From positions 558,001-622,000 of the forward strand of contig NZ_CP088156.1 in NCBI RefSeq assembly GCF_021088345.1: a stretch of DNA of 64,000 nucleotides, read 5' to 3'. This document shows positions 19,517 through 27,404 of the stretch, piece after piece. The DNA is from Bradyrhizobium ontarionense. GTDB taxonomy: Bacteria; Pseudomonadota; Alphaproteobacteria; Rhizobiales; Xanthobacteraceae. Under the pieces are notes generated by a model. The model worked only from the letters and a program-made list of their open reading frames with translations. It was not told where the DNA came from and did not search any database. A program made the translations under genes and the position numbers. Every line of letters begins with the position of its first letter. Within the stretch, counting starts at the first letter, position 1.

Positions 19517-19731
19517 AACGCAGGCTTCGTGGCGAGCCAGTGGCGCGAGAGGGTCTCTTCGTGCCGTTCGAGCCGTGCGCCATCATCGATCATCTCGCGC
19601 GCGACGTCTCGGGCGTTTTCCTCGCCGGCCTGGTCTCGCAAGATGGTTGTCGGTTGCTGGAAATCTGGCATACGGGGCCCATGTCGAGCCACAGTCATTG
19701 GGCGTGCTTGGATTGCGAGCGTCGGTCTTGA
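19513..19731 (+). CDS. Possible small hypothetical protein (TTG start)
   Basis: A 72-residue frame starts at TTG 19513, overlapping the upstream stop (TTGA), with GAGGA about 7 bases before it. The sequence (LFVPFEPCAIIDHLARDV, then LEIWHTGPMSSHSHWACLDC) is not one I recognise. It would fill an otherwise 228-base gap. It could equally be chance. Confidence 0.3.
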   Translation: MKRRLRGEPVAREGLFVPFEPCAIIDHLARDVSGVFLAGLVSQDGCRLLEIWHTGPMSSHSHWACLDCERRS

Positions 19732-19744
19732 GGAATTTTGCGTG

Positions 19745-20290
19745 ATGACGATCGAAGACGTCGAGGCCCTGAAGCAGGCGATCGCCTCCGGCCGAACGCC
19801 GGCGTTTCTGCTGTTCTGGGGACACACCGCAAAGACGGACGAGATCGGCAAGCACGTGCTCAGCCAGTGGTGGCCGGCGGCGTTCTCGCTCGATGGCCGG
19901 ACCTATGCGACCGCCGAGCACTACATGATGGCGCACAAGGCCGAGTTGTTCGGAGACCAGGAGACGCGCGACGCCATTCTGGCGGCGCCCGGTCCGTCGC
20001 AGGCAAAAACTCTCGGGCGGGCGGTGCGCGGCTTCGACGACGATCGCTGGATCGCACACCGGTTCGATGTCGCGGTGCGCGGCAATGTCGCCAAGTTTGG
20101 CCAGAACCCGGAACTCGCGGCGTGGCTGCGATCGACCGGCGACGCCGTGTTGGTCGAAGCGAGCCCGGTGGACCGCATCTGGGGCATCGGCCTCGCGGCC
20201 GATGACGCGCGGGCGCGCGAACCGGCGCGCTGGCGCGGCCTCAACCTGCTCGGCTTCGCGCTGATGAAGGTGCGCGCCGCGCTCCAATGA
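19745..20290 (+). CDS. NADAR family protein (YbiA-like N-glycosidase)
   Basis: This 181-residue protein is a clear NADAR domain: LSQWWPAAFSLDGRTYATAEH, MMAHKAELFGD, VEASPVDRIWGIGL and WRGLNLLGFALMKVR. Known NADAR proteins cleave N-glycosidic bonds in riboflavin-pathway intermediates, and some remove ADP-ribose from guanine. ATG 19745 fits the family's start. It converges on the Pnkp gene with a 19-base gap. The setting beside RNA repair makes a nucleic-acid substrate worth testing, without proof. Confidence 0.88.
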   Translation: MTIEDVEALKQAIASGRTPAFLLFWGHTAKTDEIGKHVLSQWWPAAFSLDGRTYATAEHYMMAHKAELFGDQETRDAILAAPGPSQAKTLGRAVRGFDDDRWIAHRFDVAVRGNVAKFGQNPELAAWLRSTGDAVLVEASPVDRIWGIGLAADDARAREPARWRGLNLLGFALMKVRAALQ

Positions 20291-20309: not shown

Positions 20310-22871
20310 TCACAGCCGCGGATCGATCGGCTCGCTCTCCAGCGCCAGCACCGCGAACACGCATTCATGCACGCGCCGCAGCGGCTCGCGCGCGACGAAG
20401 CGCGTGAGCGCCTCGTGGCCGAGGGCGAATTCGCGCAAGGCGAGCTTGCGCTTGCCGTCGAGCTTGCGCTGGCGCAGCCGGATGATGTGCTCCGGCGCGT
20501 CGTATTCCGGGCCGTAGATGATGCGCAGATATTCTGACCCGCGCACCTTCAGCGCCGGCTGGATCAGGCCCTTCGGCCCGCGTGCGACGAAGTCTTTGGG
20601 CTTCACCACCATGCCTTCGCCACCGCCGGCCGTGAGTTGCTCCCACCAGGCGATGGCGTCCGCGACGGCCGCGTCATCCGCCAACGTCACCGTGCGCCAA
20701 TGCGTGCGCGTGACGACCGACTGAGATGCGGCGGCGAGCCGATCGGCGATGCCCATGTGCCAGACATGATCCTGGTCGAACCAGACCCGGCCTTCGCTGG
20801 CCAGCAGATGGAACGGCGCGACCTTCAGATCATCGACGCCCGAGACCGGCCAGATATAGGGCGCCCAGGCCTCGCCATAGCGCGCCACACGCTGCACACG
20901 ATCGCGAAAGTGATCGCCGAGTGCAGCGACGTCGAGCCCGCGACGGGCGGCGCGCGCCAGCGCTTCCGCCGCCGCACCGAGACCAGCGACCGATGACGCC
21001 GCGACCGGCGCATACTGGCTCTCGATCAGGCTGCCAGCCTTGGCCGACCACGGCATGATCTCGGCGTCGAGCAGAACCCAGTCGGATTGCAGCTCCTGCC
21101 ACAGGCCGGCATCGTCGAAGGCCTGTCGCAGCCGCGCCAACAGCGCCTCGGTCATCGCGGCATCGTTGAAGAAGGCGCGCCCGGTGCGGGTCCAGATCGC
21201 GCCGCTCTCATCTCCGGCGATGTTGAAGCGGGCCTTCGCAACGTCGGTGCTCCGGCACAGCGCGATCACGGCGCGCGAGCCCATGTGCTTCTCCTCGCAC
21301 ACGACCTCGCTGACGCCGCGGTCACGGAAATGCGCGAACGCCTCCTCGGGCCGCTCCAGCCAGCCTTCGCGGGCGCTGGTCTCCGACGGCGACATCGTCG
21401 GCGGCAGGTAGGCCAGCCATTGTGGCGCGAGCGCGAACCGGCTCATGACTTCCAGCGCGGCGGCGGCGTTCTCCTCGGCGACCACCACGCGGTTCAACAA
21501 AGTGGTGTCGATCCAGCGCCGGCCGCTGACATCCGCGATGTCGAGCAGCTGGTCGGCCTCGGCCTGCGCCGAGACCGCGCCGGCGCGCGCGGCAAGCGGA
21601 CGGATCGGCTCGCACCAGACGCGCTCGGCGTCGACGTCGACGATCTCGCGCTCGGGCCAGCGCAGCGCCGTGAGCCTGCCGCCGAATACGCAGCCGGTGT
21701 CGAGGCAGAGCGTGTTGTTGACCCATTCGGCGTTGAGCACCGGCGTGTGGCCGTAGACAACGCTGGTTGGCCCGCGATAGTTCGCGGCCCAGTCGGCGCG
21801 CACGGGCAGGCCGAACTCGTCGATCTCGCCGGTGGTCTCGCCATAGAGCGCGAACTCGCGTACCGCGCCGGAGCCGCGGCCGATCATCTCCTCCTTCAGC
21901 CCGGCATGCGCGACCGCGAGCCGGCCGCCATCGAGCCAGACATGGCTGCGCAGGCCGTCGAGGAACGCGGGCAGCGTGTCGCGGAAGCTGCGATCCTCGC
22001 TGGCGAGCTGATCGATCGTCGCCTGCAGCCCATGCGCGATCGTAACCTTGCGCCCGGCAAGCCAGCGTCCGAATTTGCGGTCGTGGTTGCCCTGCACGGC
22101 ATAGGCGGTGCCGGCCGCAACCATGCTCATGATGATGCGCAGCACGTCGGGCGATTGTGGGCCGCGGTCGACGAGATCGCCGACGACAACGAGCTTGCGG
22201 CCGGCGGGCGGTGTCACCGTGACAGTGCGATGGCCCGTGGCCTCGCTCCATGTCACCTGGTAGCCGAGCTTCGCCAGCAGCGCCTGCAATTCGCTAGCGC
22301 AGCCATGGATGTCGCCGACGATGTCGAACGGACCATTGTCGTGGCGCTTGTCGGTCCACAGTGGCTGCCGGGCGATGGTCGCGGCCTCGATACGCTCGAC
22401 GCTGTCGAGCTTCCAGACCTGGCGGAAACCCTCGCGCTGCAGGCCACCGAGGCCGCGGCGGATTTCCGAGACCATGCGCTGCACCACCGGGCCGCCGAAA
22501 GTGCGCTCCGGCCGCGTCTTGTTTCTGTCGATGCAGATGTCGATGCCGGGATCGAACACGATCGCGACCGGCAGCGCATGCCATTTGCGCGCCAGCTCCA
22601 CCCAGCCCTTGCGGTCGGCGGGGCGCACATTGGTGGCGTCGATCACCGCAAGCCTGCGATGCTTGAGCCGCCGGCCGGCGATCTCGCGCACGATGTCGAA
22701 GGCGTCGGCCGACACGCTCTGATCGGTCTCGTCGTCAGCAACCAGCGCGCGGCAATGATCCGAGGAGATCACCTCGGTGGGAAGGAAGTGACTGGCGGCG
22801 AAGGTCGACTTGCCGGAGCCGGTCGAGCCGATCAGCACGACCAGCGAGAAGTCGGGAATTTCGATGTTCAT
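20310..22871 (-). CDS. pnkp: Polynucleotide kinase-phosphatase-ligase of the Pnkp/Hen1 RNA-repair system
   Basis: This 853-residue protein has the three-part Pnkp layout. The kinase domain carries a P-loop at residues 15-23 (GSTGSGKST). A calcineurin-like phosphatase follows from about residue 183: DIVGDIHG, GDLVDRGP, GNHD, AHAG and YGHTP. The C-terminal ligase domain has a KxxG motif at Lys528 (EEKHMGSRAV), the expected adenylation site. Known Pnkp proteins heal broken RNA ends, and the ligase acts together with Hen1. ATG 22871 aligns with family N-termini and lies 8 bases after the hen1 stop, indicating one operon. Confidence 0.95.
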   Translation of the reverse strand: MNIEIPDFSLVVLIGSTGSGKSTFAASHFLPTEVISSDHCRALVADDETDQSVSADAFDIVREIAGRRLKHRRLAVIDATNVRPADRKGWVELARKWHALPVAIVFDPGIDICIDRNKTRPERTFGGPVVQRMVSEIRRGLGGLQREGFRQVWKLDSVERIEAATIARQPLWTDKRHDNGPFDIVGDIHGCASELQALLAKLGYQVTWSEATGHRTVTVTPPAGRKLVVVGDLVDRGPQSPDVLRIIMSMVAAGTAYAVQGNHDRKFGRWLAGRKVTIAHGLQATIDQLASEDRSFRDTLPAFLDGLRSHVWLDGGRLAVAHAGLKEEMIGRGSGAVREFALYGETTGEIDEFGLPVRADWAANYRGPTSVVYGHTPVLNAEWVNNTLCLDTGCVFGGRLTALRWPEREIVDVDAERVWCEPIRPLAARAGAVSAQAEADQLLDIADVSGRRWIDTTLLNRVVVAEENAAAALEVMSRFALAPQWLAYLPPTMSPSETSAREGWLERPEEAFAHFRDRGVSEVVCEEKHMGSRAVIALCRSTDVAKARFNIAGDESGAIWTRTGRAFFNDAAMTEALLARLRQAFDDAGLWQELQSDWVLLDAEIMPWSAKAGSLIESQYAPVAASSVAGLGAAAEALARAARRGLDVAALGDHFRDRVQRVARYGEAWAPYIWPVSGVDDLKVAPFHLLASEGRVWFDQDHVWHMGIADRLAAASQSVVTRTHWRTVTLADDAAVADAIAWWEQLTAGGGEGMVVKPKDFVARGPKGLIQPALKVRGSEYLRIIYGPEYDAPEHIIRLRQRKLDGKRKLALREFALGHEALTRFVAREPLRRVHECVFAVLALESEPIDPRL

Positions 22872-22879
22872 GAATTTGC

Positions 22880-24259
22880 TCAGCGGGTGAAGACGGCCAT
22901 CTGGGTCGGCGCGCCCAACGTTTCGTCGTGATGGCCGATGCCGGAGACGGCGACTTGATAGTTGAAGCTTGTGCAGATGCGTTGCGCCCAATCGGCGAAT
23001 TCGGCGCGCGTCCACTCGAAGCGGTGATCGCGATGGCGGAACTGACCGGCGGGAAGGCTCGGAAACAACGCGTTGTAGTCGGCGTTCGGCGTGGTCACGA
23101 TGACGGCGCGCGGGCGCGCGGCGCCGAACACGACGCGCTCGACCAGCGGCAGCCGGTCGGGATCGAGATGCTCGATCACCTCGACCAGCGCCGCGGCGTC
23201 GGCGCCGGCCCAGCGGTCGTCGCGATAGGTCAGCGAGCCATGCAGCAGCGTGATACGGCCCTCCTGAGGGCCGCCCGGCAAGCCCAGCTTCAGCCGCTTG
23301 GACGCGCGCTCGAGCTCGCGGGCGGCGGGATCGAGCCCGATCACGCGCTCCACCCAGCGCTCGCGGACGAGAAGCTGCAGCAGCTTGCCTTCGCCGCAGC
23401 CGAGATCGGCGATCGTCTTGGCGCCGGTGGCGCGCAGCGCCTCGACGGCGGCGGCCATGCGCAGGTCATTGAGCCGGATCGGCGTCTCCAGCGTGTCCTC
23501 GGTCTCGCTGCGCGCATCGGGATCGAGCGCCTCATCCTGCGTCTCCGGCGCCAGCCGCGCCAGCGCCGCGCGTGCGAGCACGCCGCGATGGCGCAGGTAG
23601 CGGCGCACGATCAGCTCCTTGGCCGGATGCGCGTCGAGCCAGCCTTCGCCGCGCTTGAGCAGCTTGTCGATCTCCTCATCGCCGACCCAGTAGTGCTTGG
23701 CGTCGTCCATCACCGGGATCAGCACGTAGAGATGGTTCAAGAGCGCGCTGAGCCGGGCGCTGCCGCGCAAGGTCAGTCGGACATAGCGGCTCGATGGATC
23801 GCCCTGCGGTCCAGGCACCGGCGCCAGCTCCATTTGCCAGCCCAACGGCTCGAACAGCTGCCGCAGCACGGCTTCGCCGCCGCGCAGCGGCAGCGGCGTC
23901 ACGACCGCTTCGAGCGGAATGGCGCTGTCGGCGAGCTCCTGGCGCGCGCTGCTGACGCCGTTCATCGCGGTCCGGAACGCCTTGTTCAAGGCGACGGAGA
24001 GGAAGGACGACGCGGCGTAGGGCCGGTCGTTGACATATTGATCGAGCAGCCCGTCGCTCTGGCCCTTGCCGCGCACGAGACCGATCGGATCGACGTCGAG
24101 CACCAGCGCCGCCTCGCAGCGGCTCTCGCTGGCCTCGGGATAGACGATCAGCGCCTTGCCATAGGTGAGCGCGAGCTCATGCAGCCTGTCGGGATGCTTG
24201 TTGAGCAGGTAGCCGAGATCGGTGGCGGGCTGATGTGTCGTGGCGATGGACAGAAACAT
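22880..24259 (-). CDS. hen1: 3'-terminal RNA ribose 2'-O-methyltransferase
   Basis: This 459-residue bacterial Hen1 has the N-terminal ligase-activating region (start MFLSIATTHQPATDLGYLLN; then ALIVYPEASESRCEAALVLDVD) and a C-terminal methyltransferase. The SAM motif ADLGCGEGKLL is near residue 286. The metal-binding motifs are EVIEH near residue 360 and RHRDHRFEW near residue 410. In known systems Hen1 marks the 3' end of cut RNA with a 2'-O-methyl group before ligation, protecting the repaired site from recutting. ATG 24259 gives the standard N-terminus. Confidence 0.95.
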   Translation of the reverse strand: MFLSIATTHQPATDLGYLLNKHPDRLHELALTYGKALIVYPEASESRCEAALVLDVDPIGLVRGKGQSDGLLDQYVNDRPYAASSFLSVALNKAFRTAMNGVSSARQELADSAIPLEAVVTPLPLRGGEAVLRQLFEPLGWQMELAPVPGPQGDPSSRYVRLTLRGSARLSALLNHLYVLIPVMDDAKHYWVGDEEIDKLLKRGEGWLDAHPAKELIVRRYLRHRGVLARAALARLAPETQDEALDPDARSETEDTLETPIRLNDLRMAAAVEALRATGAKTIADLGCGEGKLLQLLVRERWVERVIGLDPAARELERASKRLKLGLPGGPQEGRITLLHGSLTYRDDRWAGADAAALVEVIEHLDPDRLPLVERVVFGAARPRAVIVTTPNADYNALFPSLPAGQFRHRDHRFEWTRAEFADWAQRICTSFNYQVAVSGIGHHDETLGAPTQMAVFTR

Positions 24260-24289
24260 GGGGTCACTTATTCCTACTGAGTCACAACC

Positions 24290-24441
24290 GCCGTCATTCC
24301 GGGACAAGGCCGAGAGGCCTTGAACCCGGAATCTCGATATTGTCTTGCGTCCATTCCTGACAATCTCGAGATTCCAGGTTCAATCGTCAACGCGTCGCCG
24401 CTTCGCGCGGACGCATTGACGATTGCCCCGGAATGACGGCG
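24290..24441. repeat. Dispersed inverted repeat between ro60 and hen1
   Basis: GCCGTCATTCCGGG with CAA near 24290-24306 is inverted at 24423-24440 (TTGCCCCGGAATGACGGC), and nested stems lie between. The CCGTCATTCCGGG motif is a well-known Bradyrhizobium-type intergenic repeat. It fills the roughly 300-base gap between the ro60 stop and the hen1 start and may end or attenuate ro60 transcription. Confidence 0.6.
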
Positions 24442-24557: not shown

Positions 24558-25898
24558 TCAATGCAGGGTGGCCCCGCGCAAGCTCTCCTCCTGCGCCGCG
24601 ATCCAGGCGATCACGGCCTCGGAGAAGCCGTCGACCCGCGTCCAGGGCCCGTAACCGACCCCGTGCTGGTACGACGCCACGTTGACCATGGTCCCGCGCG
24701 CCTTCGGCGACGGCACCGCATCGTGGCTCTGCTCGTCGGTGAAGACAATCAGGCGGTCACCCCCACGGTCGATGTCCTTGACCGCACGGCCGAGATAGGT
24801 CCCGGAATGCGGCTGCGAACTGAGGATCGCATCGCGCAGCGCAAATCCCCGGCGCGGCGGCACCTTCACGACCTCATTGCTGAACGTGAAGATCTCCACC
24901 TCGTCGCAGACCTCGCGGGCGAGGATCGCCAGTCCGCAGGCCGCCTCCGCGCGCGTCATTTCCGACTGCGCGGACAGCCTCGCGAACATCGAGCCGGACA
25001 CGTCGATCAGGAGCCGCGTGCGGCCGGGCAGCCGTGCGTAGCCCTTGATCGACCGGAGCATCGCGCCCTCGAGCTCGGGCTCGAAGTCGGGCGCATGCCG
25101 TGCCGCCGTGATGAAGCGATACGGCAGGACACGGTCCGTCCGCATCGTCTCGATCGCGGCCGCGATGGTTGCCCGCGGCACGCCCGCCTGCTGCATGAGG
25201 CGCAGGTTGCGCAGCAGCGCCAGCGCGCCGAGCCGCTTCTCAGCGAGCAGCCGCTCGAAGCTCGCGCGCTTGTCCGCGCCGGCCGAAAGCGCGACCTCCC
25301 AGGTGTCGGGCGAGGGCAGCTCGCCCTGGGCAAGCTGCTTCCACACTGCCTCCTGGGCGGCATCCTTCGGTCTGGCGTGCACCAGGAACAGGACGTCGCG
25401 GAGCCGCACCGGCCCCTCGCGATCATACTTCGCGAGCTGATAGGCGTCGAACTTCGCAAACGCCTTCGCCAGCCCCTTCTTGACCTGTGCCGAGACCGGC
25501 TGCCGCTTGCGCTGCTGCTGAGGACCGAGAGAATCCGCCCAGTAGATCGCGAGCAGCTCGGTCATCTCGTTCGGCCGCTGGATGATACGCGACAGCGTCT
25601 CGGCGACCAGCGCACGGTGCGACGGCAGCCGCGCCATCTCGCGGGCGACGAGCAGCGGCGCATGCCGCAGCTTCATCTCCTCGCGCGCACGGACCGCGAG
25701 ATCAGTGACCTCGCGCGGTGCGACCTGGGGCACCAGCGCCTTGATGCGCTCGGCGATCGACACGCCGTCCTCGTAAAACTGGTCCTCCCACAGCAGGCAG
25801 CTCATCAGTGTACGCTGCAGCGCCTGTGCCGGCGCGAGCTGCCGGGTGCGCGCACCCTCATGGGTGAAGGCGCGCAGGGACTTGTTGAGCCTGACCAT
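24558..25898 (-). CDS. rsr: TROVE-domain Ro60-like RNA-binding protein (bacterial Ro/Rsr)
   Basis: This 446-residue protein has a TROVE (HEAT-like ring) domain from the N-terminus (QALQRTLMSCLLWEDQFYEDG; VREVARLP-like helix VAREMARLPSHRALVAETL) and a C-terminal von Willebrand A domain. An intact MIDAS motif begins at Asp299 (DVSGSM). Known bacterial Ro60 proteins bind Y RNAs and misfolded RNA and can guide exonucleases. ATG 25898 has AGGAGG 6 bases upstream. The gene lies 35 bases after the RNA array at 25933-26809, which very probably encodes its RNA partners. Confidence 0.93.
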   Translation of the reverse strand: MVRLNKSLRAFTHEGARTRQLAPAQALQRTLMSCLLWEDQFYEDGVSIAERIKALVPQVAPREVTDLAVRAREEMKLRHAPLLVAREMARLPSHRALVAETLSRIIQRPNEMTELLAIYWADSLGPQQQRKRQPVSAQVKKGLAKAFAKFDAYQLAKYDREGPVRLRDVLFLVHARPKDAAQEAVWKQLAQGELPSPDTWEVALSAGADKRASFERLLAEKRLGALALLRNLRLMQQAGVPRATIAAAIETMRTDRVLPYRFITAARHAPDFEPELEGAMLRSIKGYARLPGRTRLLIDVSGSMFARLSAQSEMTRAEAACGLAILAREVCDEVEIFTFSNEVVKVPPRRGFALRDAILSSQPHSGTYLGRAVKDIDRGGDRLIVFTDEQSHDAVPSPKARGTMVNVASYQHGVGYGPWTRVDGFSEAVIAWIAAQEESLRGATLH

Positions 25899-25932
25899 GA
25901 TGGCCTCCTCTTGGGGTTGATGATGGATGGGG

Positions 25933-26072
25933 TGCCGGGGAACGGACGAGGCTGACCTGCCATTGCTGGCAACCACATGCTCGATCCGACGAGCTGCGGA
26001 CGGATGACGTCCGGGAGGAGTCGAACCTCCAACCTTGTGGTCCCGAAGTAACAGCGCTCTTCACCACCGGCA
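25933..26072 (-). ncRNA. Y RNA-like unit E with a permuted Pro-CGG-like tRNA domain
   Basis: This unit reads on the minus strand towards ro60. It opens with the conserved GGTGGTGAAGA (26068-26058). P2 is 26059-26052 with 25954-25948, and a short P1 is 26072-26069 with 25936-25933. Inside, the 3' half of a tRNA comes first: loop end CGGGA at 26045, anticodon-stem strand 26040-36, T arm 26030-14, acceptor strand 26013-07. The 5' half follows: acceptor 26003-25997, D arm 25994-79, anticodon-stem strand 25977-73, TT. The anticodon stem TGTGG/CCACA exists only between the two halves. The joined loop TTCGGGA reads anticodon CGG (Pro). A GNRA-capped hairpin lies at 25971-58. Confidence 0.75.
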
Positions 26073-26073
26073 G

Positions 26074-26110
26074 TGACGCATGATCGTCTCTTGCGAGCGA
26101 TCATGCGTCA
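26074..26110. other. 13-bp perfect hairpin between RNA units D and E
   Basis: TGACGCATGATCG at 26074-26086 is exactly inverted at 26098-26110 with an 11-base loop. No T-run follows on either strand, so it is not a standard terminator. Its place between units D and E suggests a processing signal or part of unit E's leader. Confidence 0.6.
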
Positions 26111-26117
26111 GGATGGA

Positions 26118-26279
26118 CCACGCGCCGGGAACGGGCGAATGCTGAGCTCCGCTCCACTCGCGTGGACCGGACAGTGCTCTGCCGCTGAGCTACCGGCGCA
26201 TGGAACGCCGGATGGGAGTCGAACCCACGACCTCTCGATTAGCAATCGAAGTATCAGCACTCTTCACCACGGCACGTGG
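26118..26279 (-). ncRNA. Y RNA-like unit D with a permuted tRNA domain, Ser-GCU-like loop and encoded CCA
   Basis: P1 pairs 26279-26271 with 26126-26118 (9 bp with one G-U) and P2 pairs 26261-26254 with 26145-26138. The motif GTGGTGAAGA is at 26270-61. The 3' half comes first: anticodon loop TTGCTAA 26245-39, T arm 26228-12, acceptor CCGGCGT 26211-05, then T and CCA (26203-01). One base later the 5' half starts: acceptor GCGCCGG 26199-93, then TA, D stem GCTC/GAGC with GG in its loop, ending CT at 26173. The acceptor strands pair over all 7 positions (one G-U). A GCGA-capped hairpin follows at 26171-48. The short variable loop does not fit a true tRNA-Ser. Confidence 0.75.
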
Positions 26280-26287
26280 AAGGGGTG

Positions 26288-26318
26288 GGCGGGGAATCGA
26301 CGATGCTGTTGCTGCCCC
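26288..26318. repeat. 31-base leader repeat, copy 2, upstream of unit D
   Basis: This copy is identical to 26518-26548 at 29 of 31 positions. On the minus strand it reads GGGGCAGCAACAGCATCG then ATTCCCCGCC, and the GGGG/CCCC ends could close a small stem. It precedes unit D by nine bases and may be a 5' leader or promoter-proximal element. Confidence 0.6.
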
Positions 26319-26350
26319 ACCCATAATAGGCGTTCACGCATTGAGATGGA

Positions 26351-26509
26351 CCACGAGCCGGGAACGGGCGATGACTGAGATCCGGTCCAGTTGCGTGGAC
26401 CGGAAAGCGCTCTGACCTCTGAGCTACCGGCAGAACGCCGGGCGGGATTCGAACCCGCGACCTCTCGCGTGGAAGGCGAAGTAACAGTCATCTTCACCAC
26501 GGCTCGTGG
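26351..26509 (-). ncRNA. Y RNA-like unit C with a permuted Gly-UCC-like tRNA domain
   Basis: P1 is a perfect 9-bp pairing of 26509-26501 with 26359-26351. P2 is a perfect 8-bp pairing of 26492-26485 with 26377-26370. The motif GTGGTGAAGA is at 26500-26491. The tRNA 3' half runs 26478-26435: loop CTTCCAC (anticodon TCC), variable AGGTC, T arm GCGGG-TTCGAAT-CCCGC, acceptor CCGGCGT. After a single base the 5' half follows (26433-26406): acceptor CTGCCGG, TA, D arm with GG. Joining CT at 26407-06 to CGC at 26478-76 restores a perfect anticodon stem with GCGAG. A 9-bp hairpin follows at 26404-26381. Confidence 0.75.
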
Positions 26510-26517
26510 ATTGGTTC

Positions 26518-26548
26518 GGCGGGGAATAGGCGATGCTGTTGCTGCCCC
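26518..26548. repeat. 31-base leader repeat, copy 1, upstream of unit C
   Basis: This is the partner of 26288-26318 (29 of 31 identical). It precedes unit C by nine bases, the same position as the other copy relative to unit D. Unit E lacks it. The pattern suggests tandem duplication of a leader-plus-RNA block. Confidence 0.6.
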
Positions 26549-26552
26549 ATCG

Positions 26553-26600
26553 GGGCGCTCGGGTTTCAGACGAAGTAACAGACATCTTCACCACCGCCTG
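26553..26600 (-). pseudogene. Truncated RNA unit B
   Basis: This stretch holds the conserved GGTGGTGAAGA, a P2-like strand GATGTCTG, TTACTT and an anticodon-arm-like CGTCTGAAACC (loop resembling Phe-GAA). It then stops: there is no T arm, no 5' half, and no complementary P1 or P2 strand. It is best read as a decayed copy left by tandem duplication. Confidence 0.5.
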
Positions 26601-26634
26601 GCCGCTCGGCCGTAGCCGGGCGACGATTGATGGC

Positions 26635-26809
26635 ATGCTGGGGAACGGGCGATCTCGGCGGTTCGACAATCGATGGCAGGTTCAGCTTGAAGCCTTAACC
26701 GAGACCCGCGACACGCCCATCTTGCCGGATGGGCTCCACGGTACGATCGACTGACGGCGGCTTGTCGCCGCAGGGGAGGCGAAGGAGCCGATATCTTCAC
26801 CACCAGCAT
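26635..26809 (-). ncRNA. Y RNA-like unit A without a tRNA domain
   Basis: P1 pairs 26809-26803 with 26641-26635 over 7 perfect bases. P2 pairs 26795-26788 with 26658-26651 at 7 of 8. The motifs GTGGTGAAGA (26803-26794) and CGCCCGTTCC (26651-26642) are both present. The interior, 26659-26787, folds into local hairpins such as GCCCATC/GATGGGC and GCGGC/GCCGC, but has no D or T arm. It resembles the second, non-tRNA-like Y RNAs that accompany YrlA in some bacteria. Confidence 0.6.
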
Positions 26810-27057: not shown

Positions 27058-27094
27058 AATAAAAAACCCTCCGGAGCGGCTGGCTCGGGAGGGT
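27058..27094 (-). terminator. Rho-independent terminator, minus strand
   Basis: On the minus strand ACCCTCC pairs with GGAGGGT (7 bp), with an inner GAGC/GCTC stem, followed by TTTTTTATT. It would stop transcripts from 27100-27400 before the RNA array, or act as an attenuator ahead of it. Confidence 0.8.
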
Positions 27095-27404
27095 CCGTGT
27101 GATGCGGACTGTCGATCCTGGCTTACGCAAGATCGTTCCCATGAGCCTGGCGTGCGCCATCCGTCGGCATGACGCCGTTGGACGGACGAATGAGATGTTC
27201 ATATCTGCAGGACATCGTCGTGCTCATGATCGGTTGCGAACCCAGATGTTCGCGAGGTCGCGGCATGTACGCTGGTTTGTTGTTGCTGTCAACAGCGTGA
27301 TGCGCGCGATCGGCGATCGGCCTTGATCTGCCACAACACGCACGGACCATGGCGGGCCTATTCATGTCCGGCGAAGAGAAGTTCGAACGCGCGAGTGCTG
27401 CCCG
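27095..27404. other. Gene-free stretch upstream of the nitroreductase-like gene
   Basis: No convincing gene was seen. A minus-strand frame starting at 27202 runs into the terminator at 27094, so a short untranslated RNA or leader transcript ending there is possible. Promoter elements for the plus-strand gene at 27405 should lie here too, but none is clear. Confidence 0.4.

Follow-up and report, generated by a model that had tools for sequence, protein, structure and literature searches.

Why should small RNAs encoded beside a bacterial ro60 gene resemble tRNAs as far as the anticodon loop? No settled purpose for the tRNA likeness of bacterial Y RNAs is given in the parts of the literature covered here, and a locus of Bradyrhizobium ontarionense raises the question directly. 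The window (the whole stretch of DNA analysed, 64,000 nucleotides) contains an array of repeated units on the minus strand, directly upstream of ro60. The array is real and groups with the YrlA class of bacterial Y RNAs, a criterion of which is same-strand linkage to ro60; here the gene and the array are adjacent and share the minus strand. The ro60 gene (24558..25898, minus strand) encodes a TROVE domain protein of about 446 residues (PF05731, 65.1 bits, cut-off 23). Its start was set at the ATG at 25898, the translation of 24558-25901 opening with I-M-V-R. Five exact copies of a 10-mer, GTGGTGAAGA when read on the minus strand, define the array. They are located at 26058, 26261, 26491, 26585 and 26794, as the original prediction had it; these positions were given correctly for the plus strand, but the features have to be read on the minus strand, which is that of ro60. 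The units are numbered from the one distal to ro60 (unit 1, whose 10-mer is copy 1, 26794..26803) to the closest one (unit 5). A promoter scan found none, such a scan saying little for this lineage. A GC-rich hairpin followed by a T run was spotted by eye upstream of the array (about 27062-27105, minus strand); it is absent from the output of the terminator scan and may be the end of an unannotated transcript.

Units 3 and 4 (26360..26500 and 26127..26270, minus strand) each contain a complete permuted cloverleaf. From 5′ to 3′, they consist of the 10-mer, the 5′ strand of the basal stem, the anticodon arm, AGGTC, the T arm, the 3′ acceptor strand, a short loop, the 5′ acceptor strand, the D arm, an extra hairpin, and the 3′ strand of the basal stem. 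When rejoined, they have a 5-bp anticodon arm, a 7-nt loop with U33, a variable region of 5 nt, a TTCGANT T loop, and GG in the D loop. As read from the sequence, the permutation point is between tRNA positions 26 and 27, which is the site of insertion of the extra hairpin and of the putative Ro60-binding stem. This basal stem, which joins the 5′ and 3′ ends, is predicted by folding, and its contact with Ro60 is putative. The original tRNA ends are closed by a short loop at the acceptor end (5 nt in unit 4, shorter in unit 3), leaving no free acceptor end with CCA. In many relatives this loop is NCCAU, with C, C and A in 34, 32 and 33 of 49 loci at columns 68, 69 and 70 of alignment A1; the UCCAU of unit 4 (26200-26204, minus strand) occupies columns 67-71. 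The loop looks as if it were a fossilised 3′ CCA end.

The anticodon arm of unit 3 (26464..26480) has the loop CUUCCAC, with the triplet UCC at 26471-26473, and its pair probabilities are 0.43 for the outermost pair and 0.72-0.81 for the other four. That of unit 4 (26234..26250) has a 5-bp stem and the 7-nt loop UUGCUAA, with the triplet GCU at 26241-26243; the corresponding probabilities are 0.41 and 0.84-0.98. The T arm, acceptor hairpin and D arm were placed by alignment A1 at 26409..26458 in unit 3, where the acceptor has 6 bp, and at 26176..26228 in unit 4. Folding of unit 3 gives a z-score of -3.30 (0/200 shuffles as good), with the anticodon and T arms formed and a weak D stem (0.15). 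For unit 4 the z-score is -2.59 (3/200), and the minimum-energy fold is the permuted cloverleaf on the basal stem, plus two extra pairs within the anticodon loop. From the sequence, these two units are very probably whole permuted tRNA mimics within Ro60-linked Y RNAs of the YrlA class. Compared with 44 host tRNA sequences, unit 4 is closest to tRNA-Asn (score 38, next 29; 54 of 70 letters alike), as is unit 3 (35, next 30), which is suggestive only of a derivation from tRNA-Asn.

The other units are less complete. Unit 5 (25938..26067, minus strand), which adjoins ro60, shares with units 3 and 4 the predicted order of T arm, 3′ acceptor strand, 5′ acceptor strand and D arm, and its YrlA match (29.1 bits at 25953-26055) is below threshold. 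It has no credible anticodon arm, folding giving a pair probability of 0 at the positions expected for a canonical one, and its z-score is -0.98 (29/200 shuffles as good). A near-canonical cloverleaf had been proposed for three units; it stands for units 3 and 4, which fold better than shuffled sequence, but not for unit 5. Likewise, the loops read as Gly-UCC and Ser-GCU are present, while the proposed Pro-CGG loop, with a stem probability of 0, is not. Unit 2 (26520..26594, minus strand) is a short Y RNA-like element with neither T nor D arm. It has at most a weak bare anticodon arm (26558-26574, minus strand), the loop CUGAAAC being obtained only when one mismatch is allowed; the fold of 26517-26596 has a z-score of -2.29 (4/200), with three stem pairs at 0.43-0.48 and the rest at about 0. 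Bare arms without T or D arm are also seen in unit 2 of L036, L041, L045, L071, L076, L082 and L086, with the triplets UUU, GAA, GUC, CGA and GUG, and unit 2 of other loci has a different insert instead. In unit 1 (26640..26803, minus strand), the 10-mer and the 3′ strand are present and 26660-26806 folds with a z-score of -2.84; no tRNA-like arm is visible in this genome, and unit 1 of several relatives keeps a T arm.

To place the array among its relatives, we collected loci from the genus. TROVE matches were found in 60 of 195 sampled genomes, the one with the window included; 61 places from the 59 other genomes make, with the window, 62 loci. A unit of the type of units 3 and 4 (10-mer, T arm, D arm spaced 44 or 45 nt) is present in 54 of the 62, in keeping with the Ro60 linkage claimed for the array, and the arrays have mostly three to five 10-mer units. 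The type is missing from L033, L034, L039, L042, L043, L070, L084 and L089; in the last of these, an anticodon arm of this kind belongs to a unit with a T arm outside the search pattern. A contig of Bradyrhizobium tropiciagri (L315) also carries a unit of this type.

The paired strands are conserved in these relatives. In 47 distinct rows of the genus alignment, 98.6% of the cells of the permuted structure are paired, and sliding the partners against each other drops pairing to 24–56%. Pair 31:39 of the anticodon stem is formed in 47/47 rows as CG (24), UA (13) or AU (10). Two-sided changes at 31:39, 50:64 and one acceptor pair amount to 43 cells, compared to 12.3 in shuffles. Over the same rows, 3 pairs show a two-sided change, which is on a par with shuffles (2.4), and the further pair types (9) are fewer than the shuffles' 10.4. 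The D stem is invariant, and 10 of the 47 rows lack pair 27:43, the outermost of the anticodon stem.

The loops were compared in 55 units with a spacing of exactly 45 nt, chosen without any condition on the loop; two 44-nt units (L068 and L092) were excluded from this count. U33 is present in all 55, A37 in 51 and C32 in 46, and the entropies at positions 34, 35 and 36 are 1.38, 1.55 and 1.92 bits. A ro60 tree of 58 sequences was used to follow the triplet, with 49 triplet-bearing loci placed on it. These loci have 15 triplets (GCA 19, AUC 9, GUG 6, GAU 3, CAU 2, and ten found once), which require 21 parsimony changes, and GAU appears at three places of the tree. Positions 34, 35 and 36 take 13, 16 and 16 steps; positions 32, 33, 37 and 38 take 4, 0, 3 and 7, and pair 31:39 takes 6 on each side. 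For reference, the 121 four-fold sites of ro60 have a mean of 5.2 steps, a 90th percentile of 10 and a maximum of 20. Positive or diversifying selection on the triplet is unsupported. Positions 34-36 do not outpace the most variable of the remaining loop sites (17 steps in one D-loop column, 11 in the first acceptor-loop column), so that free drift suffices for the observed rate. Exchange of arrays between lineages would inflate all of these step counts.

By these comparisons, the loop keeps the grammar of a tRNA (U33, a mostly purine position 37, and a 5-nt variable region) while the triplet changes freely. Fixed tRNA identities are rejected, since the triplet varies between species. Within loci that have two arms with U33, the triplets differ in 9 of 10 pairs. 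We also considered the notion that the arms of one locus never repeat a triplet; it is rejected by L051, which has GAA twice (1/10), and a count of 0/12 repeats had required a purine at 37 and had two arms added by hand.

Scans for the permuted T-to-D pattern in viral contigs and species genomes, an order-level search with our own model R1 and a phylum-level search with Rfam YrlA supplied a wider sample. Pairing of the acceptor strands was required of each row, and we excluded 19 rows that have a D arm upstream and 14 for which a tRNA is called downstream. The matches listed, which are a sample, gave 101 distinct rows, or 95 after removal of six from the genus. Among them, 50 of 95 have an arm at the spacing of a 5-nt variable region (at least three inner stem pairs), 45 of these with U33, whereas each of 20 other spacings gives at most 17 rows with an arm and at most 3 with U33. 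R1 contains the arm, and its rows could therefore favour it; without the 30 R1-found rows, 39 of the remaining 65 listed rows have an arm and 35 have U33, as against at most 11 and 3 at other spacings. By source, the arm and U33 are present among the matches listed in 18 and 16 of 31 rows from genome contigs, 15 and 14 of 25 viral rows, 6 and 5 of 9 rows from the Rfam search, and 11 and 10 of 30 rows from R1. Taking the best of spacings 4 to 6, 54 of the listed rows have an arm, giving 50 distinct arms, 44 of them with U33; depending on the spacing allowed, 41–45 of the 95 form none. Match tallies of R1 (197/198 genomes in a family search, 295/297 in the order search) were discarded as counts of presence, because neighbouring ordinary tRNA genes match the model at about 30–45 bits; R1 was used to locate strong matches, which were then inspected. 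One R1 match of 78.1 bits (L174, from a 3-Mb genome of the same order) lies inside a run of ordinary tRNA genes and resembles a tRNA array. An ordinary-looking tRNA-Pro(TGG) gene is located between two YrlA units in L189 (1383-1460) and L196 (1631-1708). A stricter DNA pattern gave no match in the viral contigs.

The 44 distinct arms with U33 among the matches listed have 22 triplets. U36 is present in 31 of them, compared to 10 of 55 units inside the genus, and such arms mimic tRNAs for codons beginning with A. With relatedness uncorrected, G37 goes with G36 in these 44 arms (5/2/1/36, Fisher p 1.1e-4) and A38 with U36 (30/1/8/5, p 0.006); without the R1 rows, the p-values are 0.0014 and 0.013. 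Both couplings are also found in real tRNAs. The triplets UUA and UCA occur, neither of which matches an ordinary sense tRNA. Carriers of arms with U33 include Streptomyces, Rhodococcus, Nocardia, Amycolatopsis, Caulobacter, Comamonas, Cupriavidus, Lysobacter, Mesorhizobium and Enterovirga. Members of the Actinomycetota and two phages that were checked are among the carriers. Of the 47 wider loci among the matches listed, 32 have a Ro60 match; 32 rows with U33, in 31 of the Ro60-bearing loci, lie 123–1115 nt from Ro60, all on the same strand. The 15 listed loci without a Ro60 match include four that are only about 3.1 kb long.

Genes for RNA repair are found next to the array. In the window, unit 5 and ro60 are followed on the minus strand by genes for a Hen1-type RNA-repair methyltransferase (22880..24307; PF12623, 341.1 bits) and a bacterial Pnkp with kinase, phosphatase and RNA ligase parts (20310..23015; PF16542, 581.2 bits, PF13671 and PF00149), both with uncertain starts. 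A NADAR-domain protein (PF08719) is encoded convergently to Pnkp at 19529-20290 on the plus strand. A general linkage of Hen1/Pnkp to the array was rejected: in the fetched stretches only the window, L076 and L082 have the pair, and L077 has part of Hen1 where its contig ends. One protein cluster downstream of ro60 is common to 33 of 60 loci with a Ro60 match; we call it RtcB-type after the sole member scanned, that of L048, which is RtcB (PF01139, 227.9 bits). The shared theme of the neighbours is RNA repair, not one given enzyme, and the remaining loci have other or unscanned neighbours. TROVE is also encoded on two viral contigs (95 and 66.6 bits), accompanied by a terminase gene on one and by genes for capsid, prohead protease and connector on the other. 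In the sections covered of one report, TROVE occurs in jumbo phages alongside RNA repair (PMC7824862). Phage contigs with Ro60 have chaperone-type genes as well: L346 encodes a GroEL-like protein, and in L413 the gene of a DnaJ-domain protein directly adjoins ro60.

What could such a loop be for? U33, the mostly purine position 37, the stem, the canonical spacing and the coupling of 36 with 37 and 38 describe, as far as sequence can tell, a loop that some protein must be able to take for an anticodon loop. The best mechanism we can propose, at a probability of roughly 0.4, is that the mimics are decoys or tripwires for RNases that cut anticodon loops, with Ro60 holding the Y RNAs as bait. Owing to the closed acceptor, the mimics should be neither charged nor used in translation, so they could be bound or cut instead of real tRNAs at little cost. 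With many triplets on offer, nucleases that differ in specificity would be covered, and the locus's repair enzymes (Hen1/Pnkp in the window, RtcB in many relatives) could reseal bait that has been cut; alternatively, cleavage of the bait could open the Y RNA gate on Ro60. The decoy or tripwire reading fits the loop grammar, the repair neighbours and the phage carriers, and it gives the variety of triplets a use. Against it we count the rate at 34-36, which is no higher than at the freest loop sites, the UUA and UCA triplets, the triplet shared by both arms of L051, the lack of an arm in units 1 and 5 and in 41–45 of the 95 wider rows listed, the two pairs closed within the loop in the best fold of unit 4, and the few loci with Hen1/Pnkp. 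In the parts covered of Hughes et al. (PMC7790460), anticodon-loop cleavage is linked to the Salmonella ro60 operon and its induction, and YrlA is proposed as a competitive inhibitor; YrlA fragments were undetected there, indicating that YrlA is no substrate of that anticodon nuclease, which also counts against bait.

Nearly as probable is that some protein, be it a PNPase tether, a tRNA-modifying enzyme or Ro60 itself, requires the complete shape of a tRNA, and that the anticodon arm is kept for this alone while the triplet has no function and drifts. The pace of change at 34-36 and the occurrence of UUA and UCA are in line with such drift, and the sections covered of PMC8394870 describe YrlA as a substrate of D and pseudouridine enzymes and a PNPase tether. 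A need for bare shape sits less well with the 41–45 of 95 permuted rows that do without the arm, with the G36-G37 and U36-A38 couplings, which exceed that need, or with the preference for U36 outside the genus, all three resting on the matches listed and uncorrected for relatedness. Improbable, by comparison, is a loop that pairs with codons or other RNA and so steers Ro60 or PNPase to ribosomes or chosen transcripts: the 7-nt loops look competent for it, with U33 and mostly purine at 37, but triplets differ between close species, and a clash with ribosomal sites is to be expected from the closed acceptor and from the Y stem at 26/27.

Readings of the units as genes for working tRNAs fare worse still. 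That the 3′ half precedes the 5′ half, and that an NCCAU acceptor loop occurs in unit 4 and many relatives, would suit an array of permuted genes spliced to tRNAs, as in some algae and archaea. This is very unlikely given the basal stem and hairpin at 26/27, the differing triplets between species, and the host's own Ser-GCT and Gly-TCC genes, which leave the units of the array unneeded for decoding. In addition, the GCU unit has a variable region of 5 nt, while real tRNA-Ser has a long variable arm. ARAGORN calls units 4 and 3 as linear Ser-GCT and Gly-TCC tRNAs, which might indicate ordinary or decayed linear genes with a chance likeness to Y RNAs. Their Rfam tRNA scores (24.7 and 26.3) are both below the threshold of 29, the acceptor stem of the permuted fold covaries, and the unit type stands beside ro60 in 54/62 loci; we reject plain tRNA genes on the scores and the covariation, and consider this reading the least likely of all. 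The Rfam YrlA scores of the same units (37.8 and 42.5; the latter for unit 3, at 26406-26465) exceed the tRNA scores and are themselves below the YrlA threshold of 69. The different tRNA "identities" of the original prediction thus fall, the triplet being hypervariable, the acceptor closed, the variable region of the GCU unit short, and the host provided with its own genes: the prediction holds in form, not in that word.

If the decoy or tripwire reading is correct, the holding of bait would be one role of bacterial Ro60. A broader version, which we regard as rather unlikely, is that bacterial and phage Ro60 loci hold a library of uncharged permuted mimics, with the anticodon hypervariable under nuclease pressure and paired with RNA repair. 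An arm that combines tRNA grammar with a swapped triplet suggests that the anticodon loop is a functional surface, and the loci also code for enzymes able to mend broken RNA. The role of Ro60 and Y RNAs in bacteria and phages could then be approached by asking which RNase touches the loop.

Among known systems, the array is most like the YrlA Y RNAs (Rfam RF02553; PDB 6CU1), with which it shares linkage to ro60, the permuted order of T arm, acceptor and D arm, and, by prediction, a two-ended basal stem. It differs in its multi-unit form and in the full anticodon arm with a hypervariable triplet in units 3 and 4, an arm that the Rfam consensus lacks. To our knowledge, Salmonella YrlA also has no anticodon arm, which lessens the weight of its escape from cleavage as a point against bait, and the 2018 structure paper of Wang et al. 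reportedly mentions YrlA RNAs that resemble tandem tRNAs. The array misses the gathering score of RF02553 (best 42.5 vs 69) and is thus a divergent variant of YrlA, not a plain member; several relatives within the order that bear the arm, L179, L180 and L195 among them, reach the threshold, which ties the arm-bearing RNAs to the family. The original prediction took the permuted array to be unfamiliar. The permutation as such is already known, since the crystal structure of Salmonella YrlA (6CU1) is described as a circularly permuted match to tRNA in the covered parts of PMC11472068; what is probably added is the anticodon arm with a variable triplet, no mention of an anticodon arm or variable anticodon in YrlA having been met in the literature covered.

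The rsr-yrlBA-rtcBA operon of Salmonella is similar in combining Ro60, Y RNAs and an RNA-repair enzyme, and many loci of the genus have an RtcB-type cluster. In the window its place is taken by Hen1/Pnkp, and the arrays of the genus mostly have three to five units. The permuted tRNA genes of algae and archaea, in the covered parts of a paper on which (PMC3978253) the term Y RNA is absent, also have the 3′ half ahead of the 5′ half. Those genes yield working tRNAs, whereas the units of the array, with a Y stem at 26/27, are probably never rejoined. Phage-encoded tRNAs act as shields against tRNA-cutting defences. The array resembles these in presenting anticodon loops that could occupy or replace the targets of nucleases, and differs in that its loop is carried by a Ro60-linked mimic that should not be chargeable.
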